Assembly (NCBI RefSeq): GCF_010211745.1
Contig: NZ_PDWQ01000003.1
Coordinates: 372,001-436,000, forward strand
Length of the DNA: 64,000 nucleotides
Source of the DNA: Pseudoxanthomonas kalamensis DSM 18571
GTDB lineage: Bacteria > Pseudomonadota > Gammaproteobacteria > Xanthomonadales > Xanthomonadaceae
Direction of reading: 5' to 3'
The notes under the pieces are model-generated. The model saw nothing but the letters and a program-made list of their open reading frames with translations. It was not told where the DNA came from and made no database searches. Shown here piece after piece: positions 55,470-64,000 of the stretch; the first letter of the stretch is position 1, and each line of letters opens with the position of its first letter. The translations under genes and the position numbers were made by a program.

Positions 55470-56513
55470 TCAGGGCGATGGGGCGCCGATGATCAGTTCC
55501 ACCGGTTCACTGCTCGGCAGTTTGACCCGCACCGGCGTCGATTCGACATCGCCCTCCTGCCGCATCGCGCTGCCGCTGGCCGACAGGCGGGCGAACACTT
55601 CCACCTCGTCCAGCATCGACAGCTTCTGCGTCGGCATCGGGCTGTCGCCGTCACCCAGGGTCAGCGACAGCGGCAGATCGGTCAGCGGGTGGCGTTGCAC
55701 GGCCACCGGCATCGGCGGTCCGCCGGGGATGCGGGCGATGACGAACACGCTGGCCCCGCCGTGCGCTTCGCGTGCGGCCAGCTCCGGGTCCAGCGAGACG
55801 CGCACGGCGATGGCGTGCGGACCGGCGGTGTCCGCAGCAGGTGCCGGGGCTTCGGCCGGCGTCAGCGGCGGCAGGCCGGCTTCGGTGCGGGCTTCGTCGA
55901 TCTGCTGGCGCAAGGCCGCAGCGGCCTGCGGATCGACCTGGGCCAGCAGCGGTTCCCAGGTGGCGGCGGCATCGGCCGGACGACCGTCCTGGCGTTGCCA
56001 GACGCCGAGGAACCAGGTGGCGCGCTGGTGCATGGGGTCGATCTTCAGCGCGCGCTGCAGCAACTCGACGGCAGTGGCGTCGAAGCGTTTCTGCGGATCG
56101 GCCATGCTGCGCGCCTGCGCGGTTTCGGTCAGCGCCTCCGGGTCGTCGGGCAGCAGCGCCAATACGCGTTCGTATGCCTGCAGGGCTTCGGCATGGCGGC
56201 CCTGGCTGGACTGCGAGCGCGCCAGCAGGCGCCAGCCCTCGGGCTGGTTGGGGTCGCGCTGCAGTTCTTCCTGCAGGCGGGCGATGGCTTCGTCCAGCGA
56301 GGCCGGCATCTGCGCGGTATGGTTGGTCTCGACCTGCAGCGCGGCCGGGGTGCCGAGCACGGCGTACAGCGCCACCGCGCACAGGGTCATCACCGCGACC
56401 GCAACCAGCATCGGCTTGCGCGCGTGCCGGCGCAGCGGCCACAGCACGGCACCGAAGGCGAGCAGGGCGGCGCAGGTGGCGACGATGGCGAACAGGGCGT
56501 TCTTCGGGTCCAT
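55470..56513 (-). CDS. ccmI: c-type cytochrome biogenesis protein CcmI (TPR)
   Basis: CcmI presents apocytochrome c to the heme lyase. The 347-residue protein has two N-terminal membrane segments (residues 8-28 and 36-54) and a periplasmic TPR domain (about residues 75-200, with LDEAIARLQEELQRDPNQPEGWRLLARS-like repeats: QPEGWRLLARSQSSQGRHAE is one). A C-terminal beta domain (PHAIAVRVSLDPEL) corresponds to the second half of E. coli CcmH. Its ATG shares a base with the ccmH stop (TGATG). It is the last gene of the ccm run. Confidence 0.9.
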   Translation of the reverse strand: MDPKNALFAIVATCAALLAFGAVLWPLRRHARKPMLVAVAVMTLCAVALYAVLGTPAALQVETNHTAQMPASLDEAIARLQEELQRDPNQPEGWRLLARSQSSQGRHAEALQAYERVLALLPDDPEALTETAQARSMADPQKRFDATAVELLQRALKIDPMHQRATWFLGVWQRQDGRPADAAATWEPLLAQVDPQAAAALRQQIDEARTEAGLPPLTPAEAPAPAADTAGPHAIAVRVSLDPELAAREAHGGASVFVIARIPGGPPMPVAVQRHPLTDLPLSLTLGDGDSPMPTQKLSMLDEVEVFARLSASGSAMRQEGDVESTPVRVKLPSSEPVELIIGAPSP

Positions 56514-56950
56514 CACCACTCCTGTTCGTCCTGGTCGGCGACCGTCGGCAGCGCGCCACGGCGGCGGGCCAGCACCCGCCAGACGATGACGGCGCCAAGC
56601 AGCAGCAGCAGTGCCGGGCCGAACCACAGCAGCCAGGTGCCGGTTTCCAGCGGCGGGCGGTACAGCACGAACTCGCCGTAGCGCTGGACCAGGTAGTCCT
56701 TGATCTCGGCGTCGCTCTTGCCCTGCTGCATCAGTGTCAGCACTTCGCGGCGCAGGTCGTGGGCGATCTGCGCGTTGGAGTCGGCCAGCGACTGGTTCTG
56801 GCACATCACGCAGCGCAGTTCGTGGGTCAGCGTCTGGAAGCGGGTCTCCTCGGCGGTGTCGCGGAACTGCAGCGGCGCGGGGTCGCTGGTCTGGGCCAGG
56901 GCGGACAACGGGGCCAGCAGCAGGCATGCCAGCAGGATCCAGCGACTCAT
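56513..56950 (-). CDS. ccmH: Cytochrome c maturation thioreductase CcmH
   Basis: CcmH reduces the CxxCH cysteines of apocytochromes together with CcmG. The 145-residue protein has a signal peptide (residues 1-20), the redox motif Cys47-Val-Met-Cys50 in LTHELRCVMCQNQS, and a C-terminal membrane anchor (TWLLWFGPALLLLLGAVIVW). It is the short form without TPR domain, since CcmI is separate. The start overlaps the ccmG stop (ATGA). Confidence 0.93.
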   Translation of the reverse strand: MSRWILLACLLLAPLSALAQTSDPAPLQFRDTAEETRFQTLTHELRCVMCQNQSLADSNAQIAHDLRREVLTLMQQGKSDAEIKDYLVQRYGEFVLYRPPLETGTWLLWFGPALLLLLGAVIVWRVLARRRGALPTVADQDEQEW

Positions 56951-57528
56951 GGCGTGCCCTCCAGCGTGTCCAGCAGCGGCAGCAACTGGTCGTGGATGAT
57001 ATCGTCGTCCAGCGCGCCGACATGCTTCCAGCGCACGATGCCTTCGGCGTCGACTAGGAAGGTTTCCGGTGCGCCGTAGATGCCCCAGTCGAGCGCGGCG
57101 CGGCCGTCTTCGTCGGTAATCACCACCGTGTACGGGTTGTCGTACTGCTCCAGCCAGCGCAGCGCGTCCTCGCGGGTGTCCTTCAGGTTGTAGCCGACTA
57201 CGATCACCCGCTTGGTATAGGCGAAGCGGGCGATCACCGGATGCTCGACCCGGCATTCCGGGCACCAGCTGCCCCAGACGTTCATCAGGAACGGCTTGCC
57301 GCGGAAATCGGCCAGGGTCAGGCGCTTGTCCGGCGCGTGCAGGACCGGCAGCTCAAAGGCCGGTGCCGGCTTGCCGATCAGGGCCGAGGGCAGGACGTCG
57401 CGGTCGGGATCGCCGGAGCGCTTGACTCCGTAGGCCAGCAAGGCGAGCAGGCCCAGGAAGACGACGGCGCCGGCGACGATGCCGAGCTTGCGCGCATTGC
57501 CGGAGGCGGGCGGGAGCGGGGCGCTCAA
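56947..57528 (-). CDS. ccmG: Thiol:disulfide interchange protein CcmG/DsbE
   Basis: The 193-residue membrane-anchored thioredoxin-like protein has an anchor at residues 14-34 and the active site WGSWCPEC (Cys89 and Cys92). The characteristic GCC-specific VNVWGSWCPECRVEHPV context and a cis-proline in YGAPETFLVD are present. It keeps apocytochrome cysteines reduced in the periplasm. The start overlaps the ccmF stop (four bases). Confidence 0.95.
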   Translation of the reverse strand: MSAPLPPASGNARKLGIVAGAVVFLGLLALLAYGVKRSGDPDRDVLPSALIGKPAPAFELPVLHAPDKRLTLADFRGKPFLMNVWGSWCPECRVEHPVIARFAYTKRVIVVGYNLKDTREDALRWLEQYDNPYTVVITDEDGRAALDWGIYGAPETFLVDAEGIVRWKHVGALDDDIIHDQLLPLLDTLEGTP

Positions 57529-59468
57529 GGTGAAGCCTCCTGCGCGGCCGTGTTGCGTTCGGCCGGACTGCGGCGGAAGCGGCGGTCGGCGGCGGTGACG
57601 AAGCCGCCCAGCGCCATCAGCAGCGCGCCGAACCAGATCCAGCGCACGAACGGCTTGACGTGCACGCGTATCGCCCAGCTGCCGTCGCCCAGAGGTTCGC
57701 CAAGCGCGACATAGACATCGCCGAACACGCCGGGACGGATGCCGGCCTCGGTCATGACCTGACCACCGCTGGCGTAGGCGCGCTTTTCCGGATGCAGGGT
57801 GGTCAGCGGCTTGCCGTCGCGCAGCAGCTGCACGTGGCCGCGGTCGGACAGGTAGTTGGGTCCCTGGGTTTCGTCGACGCTTTCGAAGTGGAAGGCATAG
57901 CGCCCCACTTCGACCGTCTGCCCGGGCTGCAGGGCCAGTTCACGCTGCACATTCAATGCTTCCACCAGCAGGGCGCCGATCAGGAACACGGCGATGCCGA
58001 AGTGGGCCAGCGTCATGCCCCACATTTCCAGCGTCAGCCGGCCACTGTTGCGCAGCCGCGTCCACACGAAATACCCGGTGCCGGCGGCCACCCACAGCGC
58101 GCCGAGGATGCCGGTGGCGGTTTTCCACGCACCCTGCGGCGCCAGGAACCAGACAATGGCGGCGCCGACAATGGCCAGCCCGGCCCATGGCGCCAGCAGT
58201 GCCAGCACGCGGCGGGGCTGTTCGCGTTGCCAGCGTACCAGCGGGCCGAACGGCAGCAGGGCGACCATCGGCGCCATCAGCACGAAGAACAGCAGGCCGA
58301 AGTACGGCGGGCCGACCGAGATCTTGCCCAGGCCCAGCGCGTCGGCCAGCAGCGGGTACAGCGTGCCGAGCAGGACCATGCCGCAGGCCGAGGCCAGCAG
58401 CACGTTGTTGGCCAGCAGCAGGGTCTCGCGCGAAGCCGGCGCGAACGGCGCACCGGCGGCGAAACGCCCGGCCCGCAGCGCGTACAGCAGCAGCGAGCCG
58501 CCGACCACCAGCGCCAGGAACACCAGCACGAACAGGCCGCGGGTCGGGTCGGCGGCAAAGGCGTGGACGCTGGTCAGCACCCCGGAACGGACCAGGAAGG
58601 TGCCCAGCAGCGACAGCGAGAACGCGGTGATCGCCAGCAACAGGGTCCAGCCCTGGAAGCTGCCGCGTTTCTCGGTGACCGCCTGCGAATGGATCAGTGC
58701 CGCACCGGCCAGCCAAGGCATGAAGCTGGCGTTTTCGACCGGATCCCAGAACCACCAGCCGCCCCAGCCCAGCTCGTAGTACGCCCACCAGCTGCCCAGC
58801 GCGATACCCAGGGTCAGCAGGCCCCAGGCCACGTTGGTCCACGGCCGGGTCCAGCGCAGCCAGCGTGCATCCAGCCGACCTTCCAGCAGGGCAGCGATGG
58901 CGAAGGCGAACGGTACCGCGAAGCCGACGTAGCCGGTATACAGCAGCGGGGGATGGACGATCATCCCCGGGTCCTGCAGCAACGGGTTCAGGTCGCGGCC
59001 TTCGGCCGCCGCCGGCAGCAGGCGTTCGAACGGGTTGGAGGTGAACACCAGGAAGGCGAGGAAGCCGACCGCGACGATCCCCATCACCCCCAGCACGCGC
59101 GCGACCACCGGCTGCGGCAACTTGCGCGAGAACTCGGCCACCGCCGCCGTCCACAGCGCCAACACCAGCGCCCACAGCAGCAGCGAGCCTTCGTGCGAGC
59201 CCCAGACCGCCGTGTAGCGGTAGACCAGCGGCAGCAGCGAGTTGGAGTTCTCGGCCACGTAACGCACCGAGAAGTCCTGGGTGACGAAGGCGACGGTCAG
59301 GATGACGAAGGCGGCCAGCACCAAGGTCAGTTGCACGACGGCGGCCGGGCGCGCCACGGCCATCCACTCGGCGCGCCCCAGCTGGGCGCCGGCCAGCGGC
59401 AGCAGCGCCTGCAGGCAGGCGACCAGCAGGGCGAGGATCAGGGCGACTTGGCCGAGTTCGGGAAGCAT
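57525..59468 (-). CDS. ccmF: Heme lyase CcmF
   Basis: CcmF joins heme to apocytochrome c. The 647-residue protein has about 15 membrane segments and the WWD heme-handling region GWGGWWFWDPVENASFMPWL, with flanking His in WGSHEGSLLLWALVL. Length is normal. It follows ccmE by 59 bases, the only sizeable gap in the ccm run; no terminator is seen there. Confidence 0.95.
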   Translation of the reverse strand: MLPELGQVALILALLVACLQALLPLAGAQLGRAEWMAVARPAAVVQLTLVLAAFVILTVAFVTQDFSVRYVAENSNSLLPLVYRYTAVWGSHEGSLLLWALVLALWTAAVAEFSRKLPQPVVARVLGVMGIVAVGFLAFLVFTSNPFERLLPAAAEGRDLNPLLQDPGMIVHPPLLYTGYVGFAVPFAFAIAALLEGRLDARWLRWTRPWTNVAWGLLTLGIALGSWWAYYELGWGGWWFWDPVENASFMPWLAGAALIHSQAVTEKRGSFQGWTLLLAITAFSLSLLGTFLVRSGVLTSVHAFAADPTRGLFVLVFLALVVGGSLLLYALRAGRFAAGAPFAPASRETLLLANNVLLASACGMVLLGTLYPLLADALGLGKISVGPPYFGLLFFVLMAPMVALLPFGPLVRWQREQPRRVLALLAPWAGLAIVGAAIVWFLAPQGAWKTATGILGALWVAAGTGYFVWTRLRNSGRLTLEMWGMTLAHFGIAVFLIGALLVEALNVQRELALQPGQTVEVGRYAFHFESVDETQGPNYLSDRGHVQLLRDGKPLTTLHPEKRAYASGGQVMTEAGIRPGVFGDVYVALGEPLGDGSWAIRVHVKPFVRWIWFGALLMALGGFVTAADRRFRRSPAERNTAAQEASP

Positions 59469-59527: not shown

Positions 59528-59995
59528 TCAATTCGCCGGCTCCGCGGGCGCGGCGGTCTGCACGTCGTGCTTCTGGTGCGCCATGCCCATCTTGTCGGCC
59601 ACTTCCTTGGGCATGTAGGTCTCGTCGTGCTTGGCCAGCACGTCCTCGGCCACGAACACGCCGTCGCGCATGCTGCCGGTGGCGACCACCGCCTGACCTT
59701 CGCGGAACAGGTCGGGCAGGATGCGGTCATAGCTGACCTGCAGTTGCGCATCGCCGTCGGTGACGCGGAAACGCGCCTCCAGCGAGCCCGGCTCGCGCCG
59801 GAACGAGCCTTTCTCGACCATGCCGCCCAGGCGGAAGCGGGTCTGCTGGCCGGGGTCGCCGCGCAGCACTTCTGCTGGCGTGTACAGATAGGTGATGTTG
59901 CGGCGGATCGCCAGCGTGACCAGGGTGGTGGCCACGGCGGCGGCGACCAGCAGGGCCAGCACCCACAACAGGCGGCGGCGGCGGGTCGGGTTCAT
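59528..59995 (-). CDS. ccmE: Heme chaperone CcmE
   Basis: CcmE binds heme covalently through a histidine and carries it to CcmF. The 155-residue protein has an N-terminal membrane anchor (residues 9-29), a beta-barrel domain and the heme-binding His123 in [14 protein letters not shown], including the Tyr four residues later. The ATG overlaps the ccmD stop (ATGA). Confidence 0.95.
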
Positions 59996-60159
59996 CGGTG
60001 CAACTCCACGCTGCCGTCGCGTCGGCCCTGTTCGCGCTGCACGCGCATGCGCACGCTGCGCAGCACGCGCCGAATCTGCAATTTCGGCGAGAGCCAGTCC
60101 CACAGCAGCACCACGGCGAACACGGCGTAGGCGCCGATCACGTAGGACAGGTAGTTCAT
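59992..60159 (-). CDS. ccmD: Cytochrome c maturation protein CcmD
   Basis: This 55-residue single-span protein ([20 protein letters not shown]) helps release CcmE-heme from the CcmABC complex. The C-terminal half is basic. It overlaps ccmC upstream and ccmE downstream by four bases each. Confidence 0.88.
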
Positions 60160-60905
60160 CGGTCCGCCCCGGCCAGTTTCGCCACCCAATCCTTGCCGGA
60201 TTCGCGGCGCAGGTTGTCGGCGCGCGCGCGCGCCAGCAGCGAACCGGCAAACCAGAATTTGGTCGCCAGCACCATGATCCACAACGGCGCCATCATGCTC
60301 GAGTCCATGCTGGACTCGCCGAACACGCGGATGGTCTGGCCCTGGTGCAGCGAATTCCACCACACCACCGAATAGCGGATCACCGGCAGCAGGGCAAGCC
60401 CCACGATCGACAACAGGCCGGCGGCGCGCGCGGCGGCGCGGCGGTCATCAATGGCGTTGTACAGGCCCATGACGCCAAGATACAGGAACAGCAGGATCAG
60501 CTCGCTGGTCAGGCGCGGGTCCCAGTCCCACCAGGTTCCCCACATCGGCTTGCCCCAGATGCTGCCGGTGGCCAGGGTGATCACGGTGAAAGCGGCGCCG
60601 ATCGGGGCGCAGGCCATGGCCAGGATTTCGCACAGTTTGATCCGCCAGATCAGGGCGATGGCGGCATACACGGCCATCAGCCCGAACACGAACAGGCTCA
60701 TCCAGGCGCTGGGCACATGGATGTAGAGGATGCGGAAACTGTCGCCCTGCTGATAGTCGGCGGGCACCCCGAACAAGGCTCGCCAGATGCCCAGGCCAAG
60801 CAGTACCAAAGCCGCCAGATAGCACCATGGTGCCCAGCGTGCGGCGAAGCGGTCGAAGTACGGAGGCGAACCCAGTTGATGGAACCAGCGAATCACCGGA
60901 TTCAT
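60156..60905 (-). CDS. ccmC: Heme exporter/handling protein CcmC
   Basis: CcmC loads heme onto CcmE. The 249-residue protein has six membrane segments and the WWD motif [17 protein letters not shown] with flanking histidines ([11 protein letters not shown] and [13 protein letters not shown]). It is the first gene of the ccm run. The ABC transporter genes ccmA and ccmB, which usually precede it, are not present upstream; azurin is there instead. Confidence 0.95.
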
Positions 60906-61052: not shown

Positions 61053-61499
61053 TTACGGCTTCAGGGTCAGCGTGCCCTTCATCATCGCGTAATGGCCGGG
61101 GAAACTGCAGAAGAACGAATACGGGCCGGCAGTGAGTTTGGCGACGGGAATCTTCACCGATGTGGTTTCCCCGCCTCCGATCAACGTGCTGTGGGCGACC
61201 ACGCGGGGATCACCGGCCTTGACATAGTCGGCGGCAATGCCGGCCTTGATGCCGTCGGAGGCGATTGCGGCAATGTCGGCGGTCTTGGAGATGACCACGT
61301 TGTGGCCCATTGCGGCCTTCGGCAATTTGCCGGTGTGCTTGAGGTTGATGGTGAACTCGGCGCAACTCTTGCTGACATCGATGTTGGCCAGGTTGAACTT
61401 CATCGCGTCGTTGCCCTCCAGGTCGACCGAACAGGTGGCAGCCATGGCCAGTGGGGTGGCAGAGCACAGGGCGACGGCGAGGAAGAGCTTGCGAATCAT
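61053..61499 (-). CDS. azu: Azurin
   Basis: Azurin is a periplasmic blue-copper electron carrier. The 148-residue precursor has a signal peptide (residues 1-20, ending LAMA). Copper ligands are visible: His in MGHNVVISK, and Cys, His and Met in [16 protein letters not shown]. The disulfide cysteines (TCSVD and KSCAEF) are also present. The mature size fits azurin (about 128). GGAG seven bases upstream sets the start. It lies on the same strand between a cytochrome c gene and ccmC. Confidence 0.97.
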
Positions 61500-61645
61500 G
61501 CGGTTCTCCAGTGGGTTGAATGGGGGAGCGTTTTCCGAGCACGTGTCGATTTTTCCAACTTTGAAGTTTCGACAACCCGGAAGTGGAAGAAGTTCAACTT
61601 GTGCATGGCGCTGTTATTGCCAGGCATGCGGGCTGCGTGCGTGGT
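61500..61645. other. 146-bp region between cytochrome c and azurin genes
   Basis: It should hold the azurin promoter. Two short dyads with the same half-sites, AACTT-TG-AAGTT (61557-61568) and AAGTT-C-AACTT (61590-61600), lie 90-65 bases upstream of the azurin start; they may be an operator pair, but the arms are only five bases. No terminator is seen, so azurin may also be read from upstream. Confidence 0.35.
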
Positions 61646-62425
61646 TCAGGGCGGCAGACTCGACAGCCAGGTGGACAGGGCTTGTATGCTTTCCGCATCA
61701 AGGCGTTGGCCGACGCTGGTCATGACGGCGTCGTTGCTCGAATAGTGCATCTTGCCCTCATGGAACGCATCCAAGCGCGACTGCAGGTAAACAACATGCT
61801 GACTGCGCAAGGCTGGGTAGATTGCGTAGGGCGTATTGCCGCTGCGGTCGGTTTGGTCGGCCAGCGCGTGCCCGCGTGCGTCGGAGCCATGGCAACCTTG
61901 GCAAGGGGGTATGCCTTTGTCCGGGTCGCCGTGCAGGTATAGCGCTTCACCGCGTGCCAGCAGTGTCGGATCGGGGGATGGAACACTGTCGTCGTGCGGC
62001 TGTGCCTCGGGTTTCTGCGTGGCGTAGAAGCTGGCTAGGTCACGGATGTCCTCTTCGCTGACCTCGGCAGTCAATACCGTCATCGGAGAGTCCGGTAGTG
62101 TGCCGCGCTTGTATTCCATCAATTCCCAGTAGAGGTAGCTGGCGCTTTGCCCAGCCAAGGTGGGAATCATTGGTGCAACCGAAACTGCACCGGTGGGACC
62201 GTGGCAGGTGGCGCAGAGCTCGGCCTTCCGGCGGCCGGCCTCGATATCCCCCGGCGGTGCGCCACGGTGGCGAAGGTCGTACCAGTCGTGTGTTACCGCC
62301 GCGGAGGCTTCGTCTGGAAGCGCGCCGGCGGTTGCAGTTTCGTCGCTGGCAGTCGATTGTGCGAAGACAGCCGCGTTGACGGCCAGTGCGACGACGAAGC
62401 CCAAGGAGAAACGGATTCGGCTCAT
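61646..62425 (-). CDS. Diheme cytochrome c (c4-like)
   Basis: The 259-residue protein has a signal peptide (residues 1-22) and two heme-binding motifs, CATCH at 71-75 and CQGCH at 175-179, in two similar domains. Candidate Met ligands lie in SPMTVLTAEVSEED and DAVMTSVGQRLDAE. It resembles cytochrome c4, a periplasmic two-electron shuttle. The start overlaps the stop of the upstream MtrB-like gene (ATGA), so the two are cotranslated, pointing to joint function. Confidence 0.92.
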   Translation of the reverse strand: MSRIRFSLGFVVALAVNAAVFAQSTASDETATAGALPDEASAAVTHDWYDLRHRGAPPGDIEAGRRKAELCATCHGPTGAVSVAPMIPTLAGQSASYLYWELMEYKRGTLPDSPMTVLTAEVSEEDIRDLASFYATQKPEAQPHDDSVPSPDPTLLARGEALYLHGDPDKGIPPCQGCHGSDARGHALADQTDRSGNTPYAIYPALRSQHVVYLQSRLDAFHEGKMHYSSNDAVMTSVGQRLDAESIQALSTWLSSLPP

Positions 62426-64000
62426 AGCTGGATCTCCAGCAGTACGCCCAGCAGGTTGACGCTGTAGTTCTCGGGGCCACCATCGGTGTAGACGCGGTGA
62501 TCCAAGACCTGGCCGTCGGCAAAGCCGAGATAGTGCCAGTCGGACATCACTGCTTTCTCATACGTGTCGAACAGGCGCACGCCGATCCGTGAACTGAGTG
62601 GTAGCAATAGGCTCAACGTGTACGAGTTCGAGCGATAGACCATTGGCGGGTAGCCGCCAGTCAGAAGCGGAGCTAACGCCGGATCGGTCAGCGCCGCCGG
62701 TGAAGCGAAACGGTAACCGGTGATGCCGCGCGAGTACGTCCAATTCCAGGAACCATCGAGAGTAGCGCGACCGATTCGCTGAGACCAGCTTGCACCGGCG
62801 TAGTGATTGCGTTGCTTGTCGTCGAGCCACCAGCGGTTTTCCTCAGGATAGTTCTCACCGCCGAGGCTGGGGTTGTCCGTCAGTGCGCCAGTATCGTTGA
62901 CGTTGGCAAACGCCAGTTTCGATCGATCATGGCCGTACCAAAGTCCGGCCACGGTGCCAGGGTTCGGTTGCCACTCCCATTGCAGGCTGGCGCCGAGGGT
63001 GTCGTACTTCTGCCGACCGAGTTCGGCGTCGTAGTCGTTCCAGTCGCCGCGCACCGAGGCGTAGACCGTCATCGCGTGCGGCAGAACGAAGGTTGCCATC
63101 ACGTCAAGTTTGTTCTGATCGCGACTGGAAACATCGTACTTGCGCAATTCCTCGACCGTATGCGCCATCGTGCCGCCAACTGGCTCGACGTAACCGGGCA
63201 AGTCGCTGGAGAAGGTGAACTCGTAGGGGTCGTATTCGTATTCGCTGCCACTGCGCTTCAGCCAGGTGTAGTTGACCCGAAGTGTCAGCCAGTCGAACGA
63301 GCGATTGGTCCAGTTCAGCTTGATGCTGTTGTCGTCGGTGGCCTCGACTTCGCGGTGGGATCGCTCGGTGCGGCTGAAAGTGAAGGAGGCGCCGACGGTA
63401 TTGCTCGTCCCCAGTCTCCAATCAGCGCCAGTCGAGGCCTCATGGATTTCCTTGTCGAGCGGCAGGTTGCGTACCCGGGTCAGCACCGAAGCGTTGCCAT
63501 AAGGATCCCAGACCCCCATTTCACCAGGGACCACGCTGCCTTGAGCGCCGTTTTCACTAATGTAGCCGTATTGCCCGGTCAACGGGTTGTATGCCCAGTA
63601 GGTACCGTCGTAATCGTCGCGCTGGAAGCGGACACTGGCGCGCCACGTCAGATTGCCAGTTGGTTGCAGTACCACGCGTGCATCAAGTAGCTGGCTGTTG
63701 ATGGCCAGATCGGCCTTGGTGCGCGATAGCGCCGCAGTGGTGTTCCAATCTGCGCAGTCGTACAGGAATCCAGGAAGCGGGATGCCGAATTGGCCCTGGC
63801 AAGGCATCGGTGCTACCAAGTCATCGTTCTGGCTGCTGCGGGTCAGCGAGGTGGTCAGTGAGAAATCGCCGTTCCAAGCGATCTTGCGGCTGAAGCTGGC
63901 GCGCAGTTGGTGGTAGTCGTTGTCGGGTTCGTAGGAGAACTCGCCCAGTCCGAGCTGTGGGGTCGACACTGGTACAACGGGATAGGTGCCCAGTGGTACT
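62422..64000 (-). CDS. MtrB/PioB-family outer-membrane porin (N-terminus beyond window)
   Basis: The frame is open to the window edge, so about 526 C-terminal residues are seen; a GTG at 63969 is internal. The sequence is almost all amphipathic beta strands with periodic aromatic residues (LTLRVNYTWLKRSGSEYEYD, WSQRIGRATLDGSWNWTYSR), typical of MtrB/PioB, 26-28 strand porins that sheath a decaheme cytochrome and pass electrons across the outer membrane. MtrB proteins are about 700 residues. The CxxC of some MtrB N-termini cannot be checked. The MtrA/PioA partner would be expected beyond position 64000. Confidence 0.85.
   Translation of the reverse strand, partial: VPLGTYPVVPVSTPQLGLGEFSYEPDNDYHQLRASFSRKIAWNGDFSLTTSLTRSSQNDDLVAPMPCQGQFGIPLPGFLYDCADWNTTAALSRTKADLAINSQLLDARVVLQPTGNLTWRASVRFQRDDYDGTYWAYNPLTGQYGYISENGAQGSVVPGEMGVWDPYGNASVLTRVRNLPLDKEIHEASTGADWRLGTSNTVGASFTFSRTERSHREVEATDDNSIKLNWTNRSFDWLTLRVNYTWLKRSGSEYEYDPYEFTFSSDLPGYVEPVGGTMAHTVEELRKYDVSSRDQNKLDVMATFVLPHAMTVYASVRGDWNDYDAELGRQKYDTLGASLQWEWQPNPGTVAGLWYGHDRSKLAFANVNDTGALTDNPSLGGENYPEENRWWLDDKQRNHYAGASWSQRIGRATLDGSWNWTYSRGITGYRFASPAALTDPALAPLLTGGYPPMVYRSNSYTLSLLLPLSSRIGVRLFDTYEKAVMSDWHYLGFADGQVLDHRVYTDGGPENYSVNLLGVLLEIQL

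Follow-up and report, generated by a model that had tools for sequence, protein, structure and literature searches.

Can an ordinary, organics-respiring member of the Xanthomonadaceae carry electrons across its outer membrane, and if so, in which direction? The question arises at the end of a 64,000-nucleotide stretch of the Pseudoxanthomonas kalamensis DSM 18571 genome (the window: contig NZ_PDWQ01000003.1, positions 372,001 to 436,000). Three consecutive minus-strand genes there were predicted to encode an MtrB/PioB-family porin, a c4-like diheme cytochrome and azurin, together a likely extracellular electron-transfer module. Open reading frames and family matches confirm all three. Judged by its sequence, the block encodes a probable conduit of the MtrAB/PioAB/MtoAB kind with c4 and azurin as likely carriers, and is situated inside the ccm cluster.

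The window edge cuts the porin gene (62422..64000 in the window, minus strand), and we read the remaining ORF on in the same genome (G000:C94) to position 65004. The full protein of 860 amino acids matches Pfam PF11854 (MtrB_PioB) at 310.1 bits against a cut-off of 23, but scores 215.1 bits with NCBIfam TIGR03509, under the cut-off of 240.05. Its structural model, with 26 long strands by our own count and a mean pLDDT of just 69.6, aligns with 6r2q_B, the MtrB of the solved Mtr complex, at Z 24.2 (rmsd 2.8, 639/649 residues); the next-best chain follows at Z 15.2. The Foldseek and VIA rows under 6r2q_B are mostly TonB-dependent transporters, which we did not take as relatives. The predicted MtrB/PioB identity thus stands for Pfam family and fold, which rule out an unrelated barrel family, and the protein falls outside NCBIfam subfamily TIGR03509.

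A decaheme partner had been expected past position 64000, and one is present. A 351-amino-acid ORF with ten CxxCH motifs (64964-66019 in the same numbering, minus strand) overlaps the porin ORF (62422-65004), which rules out the absence of an upstream multiheme gene. It scores 260.8 bits with TIGR03508 (cut-off 192.2), matches PDB 6r2q_A (9e-58) and contains both PF22113 matches of the P. kalamensis genome. MtrA and MtrB would form a complex in P. kalamensis, with the ten-heme MtrA threading the 26-strand MtrB barrel in the outer membrane.

The diheme cytochrome gene (61646..62425, minus strand, 259 amino acids) shares 4 bases with the porin ORF, which ends at 62422, in line with the predicted overlap of its start with the porin stop. 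Its best PDB match is the cytochrome c4 6q2u (3.4e-26); it also matches the cytochrome c4 1etp (1.2e-24) and 1h1o (2.8e-15), the last of which we take to be the c4 of Acidithiobacillus. The protein has the two CxxCH domains and the Met residues of the cytochrome c4 class. Both CxxCH motifs, M115 and M235 are unchanged in 9/9 aligned sequences, and the two methionines are predicted heme-binding residues. The match to the PdsA model is weak (33.9 bits, cut-off 330); this score and the c4 matches in the PDB rule out a plain PdsA, MtoD or PioC system. The last gene of the block (61053..61499, minus strand, 148 amino acids) is indeed an azurin, a type-1 copper protein that scores 186.6 bits with TIGR02695 (cut-off 105.1) and is the only match to that model in the genome. 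Two matches to multicopper oxidase PF00394 also occur in the genome, both on another contig.

The placement of these genes differs from what was predicted. Rather than directly upstream of the ccm cluster, the block lies between ccmB and ccmC, with CcmB (TIGR01190, ORF from 67055) and CcmA (TIGR01189, 67735-68364, minus strand) on the far side, beyond the window. The order is ccmA-ccmB-(tetR-mtrA-mtrB-c4-azurin)-ccmC-E-F-G-H. Next downstream of azurin is ccmC (60156..60905, minus strand, starting at the methionine of MNPVIRW), which has a single match per genome in 38/38 Pseudoxanthomonas genomes, P. kalamensis included. It is followed on the same strand by the ORFs of ccmE (about 59528-59995) and ccmF (57525-59468), by ccmG of the DsbE family (56947..57528; TIGR00385, 168.7 bits, cut-off 123.15), and by two ORFs with untrimmed starts (55470..57265). 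One is an NrfF-like ccmH (TIGR03147, 122.5 bits, below the cut-off of 159.2); the other encodes a TPR protein and occupies the place of ccmI. The names ccmC, ccmE, ccmF, ccmH and ccmI are those we presume to apply. The location may help to co-supply the twelve hemes of MtrA and c4, and PMC8805035 reports ccm adjoining mtrCAB in several bacteria.

Comparison across relatives, as the original prediction suggested, reveals that mtrA-mtrB-c4 is conserved in Lysobacterales. Among 60 loci of the MtrA group, 57 have c4 as the next gene after mtrB, and the contigs of the other three stop inside mtrB (the count leaves out L066, whose porin is cut by a contig end). The module occurs in Pseudoxanthomonas, Luteimonas, Stenotrophomonas, Dokdonella, Tahibacter, Dyella, Frateuria and Rhodanobacter. 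The underlying MtrA tree was made by a quick method, leaves out 9 loci that duplicate others, and has some rows, none of them in the present group, that are flagged for long branches. Genome-level counts refer to 24 module genomes, 4 of which do not reach the standard of 90% completeness / 5% contamination; a second MtrAB type in the family (12 genomes, L032-L043) was set aside. A one-clade origin of the Pseudoxanthomonas modules is rejected (p-AU 2.3e-7), but the genus does not form one group in the ccm tree (quick method) either, so no transfers were counted.

The module seems to carry its own switch. Immediately upstream is a TetR-family gene (66154-66840, minus strand), and at the mtrA promoter is a palindrome (66069-66082), one base off GTAAY-N4-RTTAC, that may be its operator; both lie beyond the window. 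The palindrome occurs in 17/17 loci with tetR and in 1/42 without, across 59 loci numbered below L112 that leave out 7 of the 9 duplicates and L066-L068, two of the 42 having <50 upstream bases. L072 keeps the palindrome without tetR, and L196, which has only tetR, has no palindrome between tetR and ccmC. The palindrome is absent from a further 35 loci (L112-L146), among them L134, which belongs to the same MtrA group. TetR probably represses mtrA from this site.

Does azurin belong to the module? It is likely a partner of MtrAB, but a looser one than c4: some relatives have an azurin gene by itself at the ccmB-ccmC site. This arrangement, without MtrAB, is found in 6/38 Pseudoxanthomonas genomes, and Luteimonas panaciterrae has a lone azurin at ccmB-ccmC while its module is at another site and has no azurin linked to it. 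No azurin match was found in the Rhodanobacteraceae loci fetched. These cases give some weight to a functional module of mtrA-mtrB-c4 only, in which azurin would belong to the ccm locus, serve other pathways and be a neighbor by shared location. We regard this as a serious but somewhat doubtful proposition. Against it, azurin lies beside the module in L052, L053 (where just 0.8 kb follow azurin), L056 and L057, none of which has a ccm match close by, and 1.2 kb from the module in L048. The azurins of the first four fall in the module/ccm cluster, in which the P. kalamensis protein is joined by 17 further azurins from modules and 7 from ccm loci that lack a module (support 87/95), while that of L048 falls outside. 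Azurin is also present in 23/24 module genomes, yet in 3/12 of those with only the second MtrAB type; these counts, like that of 244/371, were read by eye, and Fisher values on them ignore relatedness.

Several characterized systems resemble the P. kalamensis block in part. PioABC of Rhodopseudomonas palustris TIE-1, which serves phototrophic Fe(II) oxidation, likewise combines a decaheme with an MtrB/PioB porin and a small periplasmic carrier encoded alongside, and takes up electrons with no apparent extracellular decaheme (PMC6831781). However, the heme-free N-terminal region of PioA (residues 1-270, PMC10654088) is absent from the 351-amino-acid P. kalamensis MtrA. The carrier there is the HiPIP PioC, of which there is none in the P. 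kalamensis operon (its neighborhood consists of c4, azurin, TetR and ccm genes), and the sink is a photosynthetic reaction center rather than the oxidase proposed here. MtoAB(D) with CymA/ImoA, from Sideroxydans lithotrophicus ES-1, shares MtrAB homologues and a dedicated periplasmic cytochrome in the cluster. It uses the monoheme MtoD and a quinone-side cytochrome, whereas the operon cytochrome of P. kalamensis is a diheme, accompanied by azurin, in a genome without PF03264. Also similar are MtrAB-c4-c4 clusters of Thauera, Azonexus, Thiocapsa, Rubrivivax and Rhodocyclus, with MtrA about 51-56% identical and diheme c4-like genes after MtrB, but with two such genes and a separate MtrA group. 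A [DE]xR signature N-terminal of the first heme, carried by the P. kalamensis c4, also separates them, being present in 59/59 c4 proteins of the module's own group and 2/41 c4-like proteins of the other; this wider motif was picked after viewing the sequences, the first, narrow motif [DE]LR[RHKQL] having given 34/59 and 0/41.

The metal-reducing MtrCAB/CymA/PdsA pathway is similar in that MtrA and MtrB match 6r2q and PdsA is also a periplasmic diheme, but P. kalamensis lacks MtrC, CymA and the MtrB CxxC. Wee et al. reportedly described this N-terminal CxxC in MtrCAB metal reduction in 2014. The motif, also named for MtrB in PMC12175506, occurs in 0/20 module MtrBs.

So, which way do the electrons flow? 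Our best reading, to which we give a probability of roughly 55%, is an inward MtrAB conduit that supplies c4/azurin and a terminal oxidase of heterotrophic hosts. With no MtrC outside, the electrons most likely come from a source beyond the cell, be it dissolved Fe(II), reduced minerals, humics or a cathode. From MtrA, electrons would pass to the diheme c4 and, in Xanthomonadaceae, to azurin, and from these to a cbb3 or aa3-like oxidase, bypassing the quinone pool. MtrC (TIGR03507) is over cut-off in 0/24 module genomes, and its seven weak matches all fall in MtrA by position. No quinol dehydrogenase of the CymA/NapC type (PF03264) is present in P. kalamensis, and a separate gene of this kind is missing in 21/24 module genomes. 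The genome has ccoN, ccoO and ccoP over cut-off, for a cbb3 oxidase, and a 442-amino-acid piece of a CtaD-like (aa3-like) oxidase at 638.1, below the cut-off of 670.75. These absences, the two carriers and the oxidases support the inward direction that the original prediction found plausible, and that we too infer. Cytochromes c4 and azurins are usually of high potential, and we assume from their classes that those of P. kalamensis would be as well. P. kalamensis has no RuBisCO, which rules out autotrophy by that route; therefore, autotrophic Fe(II) oxidation is unsupported. For Mto, the authors of PMC13390432 propose a terminal oxidase, not the quinone-side ImoA, as the recipient of electrons from the +155 mV carrier MtoD.

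On the other side, the same paper reports no MtoD-MtoA interaction by NMR, and indicates that MtoD could accept electrons from CymA and hand them to MtrA in Shewanella, so a high-potential carrier leaves room for outward flow. Respiratory electrons would then be dumped on Fe(III), Mn(IV) or humics at low oxygen, passing from bc1 or NapC through c4/azurin to MtrA. Baker et al. (PMC8805035) find that MtrAB-based systems work in both directions, with no function-specific MtrA/MtrB clades and a net direction that is not inferable for most organisms. Separate PF03264 genes, NapC-like, do occur in 3/24 module genomes (G016, G091, G392), and Thauera L131 has NapC-like and NapB-like genes just upstream of its conduit. 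Nevertheless, the MtrC and PF03264 counts, the MtrBs without CxxC and carriers of usually high potential make an outward conduit unlikely. We give still less credence to a protective or scavenging role, in which toxic reductants outside the cell, Fe(II) for example, would lose their electrons to the conduit with no real gain in energy. The module's hosts are heterotrophs by reputation, the P. kalamensis genome is without RuBisCO, and a dedicated regulator suggests conditional use; yet electrons from c4 could yield usable energy at the cbb3 and aa3-like oxidases, and sequence cannot separate scavenging from energy gain. A DmsEF-type conduit serving an extracellular molybdopterin reductase (DMSO, iodate) is highly improbable even though MtrA passes the TIGR03508 'DmsE family' model, as that model presumably includes MtrA proper too, and the neighbors identified at the locus are tetR and ccm genes, with dmsAB not seen there.

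The inward reading can be extended by comparison with the rus chain of Acidithiobacillus ferrooxidans (Cyc2, rusticyanin, c4 Cyc1, aa3). As outlined in PMC10654088, that chain similarly joins an outer-membrane entry, a cupredoxin, a c4 and a terminal oxidase, although its entry is Cyc2 rather than MtrAB and its cupredoxin is rusticyanin rather than azurin. Tentatively, and at somewhat less than even odds, the module may be a neutrophilic counterpart of this acidophile chain, in which MtrAB, c4, azurin and a cbb3/aa3 oxidase would provide quinone-free electron uptake, controlled by a TetR switch of its own and widespread among ordinary organics-respiring Lysobacterales.

Metal reducers, phototrophs and iron oxidizers are the hosts of the MtrAB systems described in our sources, whereas the compact, apparently regulated module here occurs in bacteria reputed to be heterotrophs. 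Such conduits are scarcely described in ordinary heterotrophs of this group, although supplementary strain lists could name some of the module genomes. Several hosts are culture-collection strains, and Pseudoxanthomonas spadix DSM 18855 and Luteimonas mephitis DSM 12574 are cultured carriers of the module. Gene deletion in cultured aerobes could thus test the direction and purpose of a conduit that lacks MtrC and, in most genomes, CymA. The candidate operator-regulator pair offers another approach, as its inducer may reveal the natural donor. Should the parallel with the rus chain be true, aerobic heterotrophs would draw on extracellular electrons mixotrophically far more often than assumed, and ccm clusters would be repeated landing sites for such modules.

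The azurin, diheme c4-type cytochrome (c4) and MtrB/PioB-family porin that the original prediction had cast as a likely electron-transfer module were all found in the window (G000:C94:372001-436000 of a 3.03 Mb draft genome). The contig continues beyond the window end and supplies further genes there, all on the minus strand and given here in window numbering: ccmA (67735-68364), ccmB (ORF read from 67055), tetR (66154-66840) and an mtrA-like gene (64964-66019). The mtrB-like gene (62422-65004, minus) straddles the window end and overlaps the mtrA ORF by 41 bases and c4 (61646-62425, minus) by 4 bases. After a gap of 146 bases comes azurin (61053-61499, minus), followed on the same strand by what we take to be ccmC, ccmE and ccmF, then ccmG and a presumed ccmH.

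The MtrA-like protein has ten CxxCH motifs, scores above the TIGR03508 cut-off and matches 6r2q_A of the solved Mtr complex at 9e-58. The MtrB-like protein matches PF11854 (310.1 bits) and, in sequence, 6r2q_B (2.4e-17); its TIGR03509 score of 215.1 bits is below the cut-off of 240.05. Its structure, predicted from a 20-row alignment, reaches a mean pLDDT of 69.6 and shows, by our count, 26 long strands. The best structural match of this model is again 6r2q_B (TM 0.87 on the target, Z 24.2, rmsd 2.8, 639 of 649 residues), with the next chain at Z 15.2; confidence is low at the N-terminus (1-98) and in loops including 397-428, 469-514, 595-619 and 705-720. The best PDB matches of c4 are cytochromes c4, and two Met and both CxxCH are invariant in nine aligned sequences. 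Azurin was identified by its TIGR02695 match.

PF11854 occurs above cut-off in 48 of 395 genomes of the family. By our sorting, 24 carry this module type (23 with full porins, and G282, ended by its contig), 12 hold only another MtrAB type with neither c4 nor azurin linked to it, and the remainder are partial or weak matches. Loci of the second type (L032-L043) mostly have an MtrB of ~700-800 aa and no linked c4, azurin or ccm matches; in several of them a gene for a monoheme or tetraheme cytochrome lies close by. The named genomes scanned contain at least 80 loci. An MtrA tree of 109 rows (quick method) unites 61 of them, most with a Lysobacterales label, in one group (SH-aLRT 100); its neighbouring group includes Thauera, Azonexus, Thiocapsa and Rubrivivax. 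Outside the 61-row group fall the family's other MtrAB type and a few further rows that carry the Lysobacterales label (L114, L139). Directly 3' of mtrB lies c4 in 57 of 60 Lysobacterales-group loci, the other three contigs ending inside mtrB. The motif [DE]xR, adopted after a narrower pattern matched 34/59, precedes the first heme by 15-25 residues in 59/59 group c4 proteins versus 2/41 c4-like proteins of the sister group. In a Rhodanobacter MAG (L093), mtrA-mtrB-c4 is duplicated in tandem. MAGs labelled Burkholderiaceae (L072) and Pseudomonadales (L069) have modules of Lysobacterales type; L072 and L066 share an identical azurin, which makes the labels or bins look mistaken.

Azurin occurs in 267 of the 395 genomes, so its bare presence tells little (counted by eye, 23/24 module genomes versus 244/371 others, and 3/12 with only the other MtrAB type). 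In a 49-row tree, 18 of 20 module azurins and all seven ccm-only azurins form one cluster (support 87/95, without the program's star), separate from 22 sampled azurins located elsewhere; the exceptions are L048 and the upstream copy of L050. Azurin also adjoins modules with no nearby ccm match (L052, L056, L057 and, with a short flank, L053), and at L048, again with no ccm match nearby, it lies 1.2 kb away. We take azurin as a probable partner of the module, not a fixed part. At L050 (4534-10958, G249), the module lying between ccmB and ccmC has a different azurin on either side, and the upstream copy groups with azurins located elsewhere. In a Verrucomicrobia MAG (L127), a cupredoxin ~35% identical to azurin adjoins MtrAB, perhaps an independent pairing.

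A putative operator, the palindrome GTAAY-N4-RTTAC, lies shortly after a TTGA-type -35-like box in all 17 tetR-mtrA intergenic regions and is exact in 16; the P. kalamensis copy, GTAATTGTGGTTAT, is one base off. Among 42 loci without this tetR it occurs once (L072, where the upstream DNA is different). Box plus palindrome is found once each in 10 of 16 tetR-bearing genomes, just upstream of mtrA, and is absent from the other six, P. kalamensis included, where box or palindrome varies; a reversed control pattern occurs once across all 16. This distribution points to the TetR-family protein as a local regulator dedicated to the module, and we infer that it represses mtrA.

Is electron flow inward or outward? 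None of the 24 module genomes has an MtrC-family match above cut-off, and seven weak matches in six of them are MtrA by position. PF03264 has no match in P. kalamensis and matches in 5/24 module genomes (three separate genes in 200-aa frames, two inside MtrA); both P. kalamensis PF22113 matches fall in MtrA. CxxC is absent from all 20 MtrB sequences. The genome encodes ccoNOP and a CtaD-like oxidase, and no RuBisCO was found. The lack of MtrC, of CxxC and, in most module genomes, of a CymA-type gene, the oxidases, and c4 and azurin as carriers of usually high potential together favour electron uptake toward an oxidase. The Mto study (PMC13390432) proposes an oxidase route for its high-potential carrier MtoD, reports no observed MtoD-MtoA interaction, and describes CymA to MtoD to MtrA electron transfer in Shewanella; the latter two results argue against inferring direction from potential.

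All 38 Pseudoxanthomonas genomes have a single CcmC match. Between ccmB and ccmC, six hold the module (P. kalamensis, G016, G091, G392 and, without tetR, G364 and G368), six azurin alone, one tetR alone (G335) and 25 no module-gene matches, one of these (G318) having the module elsewhere. A ccm tree (quick method) pairs G335 with G016/G091/G392 (support 85) and G376, which has azurin alone, with the module-bearing G364 (support 100); these sister placements fit piecemeal loss, but parts may instead have been gained. The P. kalamensis copy may be a recent arrival, given its G+C of 60.4% against 66-68% in its surroundings; in four relatives the difference is about one point. Elsewhere the module lies between ccmE and ccmF (L076, L079, L080), after ccmE (L077, L081), after ccmI (L. 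mephitis), before ccmA (L131, L133, L136) or divergent from ccmA (L137, L141); around most loci outside Xanthomonadaceae, ccm matches are absent within the available flanking DNA. The Thauera and Pseudothauera loci (L131, L133, L136) read MtrA-MtrB-c4-c4 then ccmA-B-C-E-F, and their upstream 2-heme and 4-heme genes (NapB-like and NapC-like in L131) suggest a link to nitrate respiration.

Within the open-licence literature searched, no title or abstract start concerned an MtrAB-c4-azurin locus or MtrAB in Xanthomonadaceae. The main texts of Baker 2022 (PMC8805035), PMC9732548 and PMC7005843 mention no Xanthomonad, Luteimonas, Rhodanobacter, Lysobacter or azurin, and that of PMC10734462 no azurin, cytochrome c4 or Xanthomonad. 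PMC10654088 describes MtoAB/PioAB-pathway homologues as common in Proteobacteria, including Gammaproteobacteria, so some of these module proteins may already be in its networks. The main text of Baker et al. (PMC8805035) already reports ccm adjoining mtrCAB; what is new here is a module that lacks MtrC and is nested within ccm.
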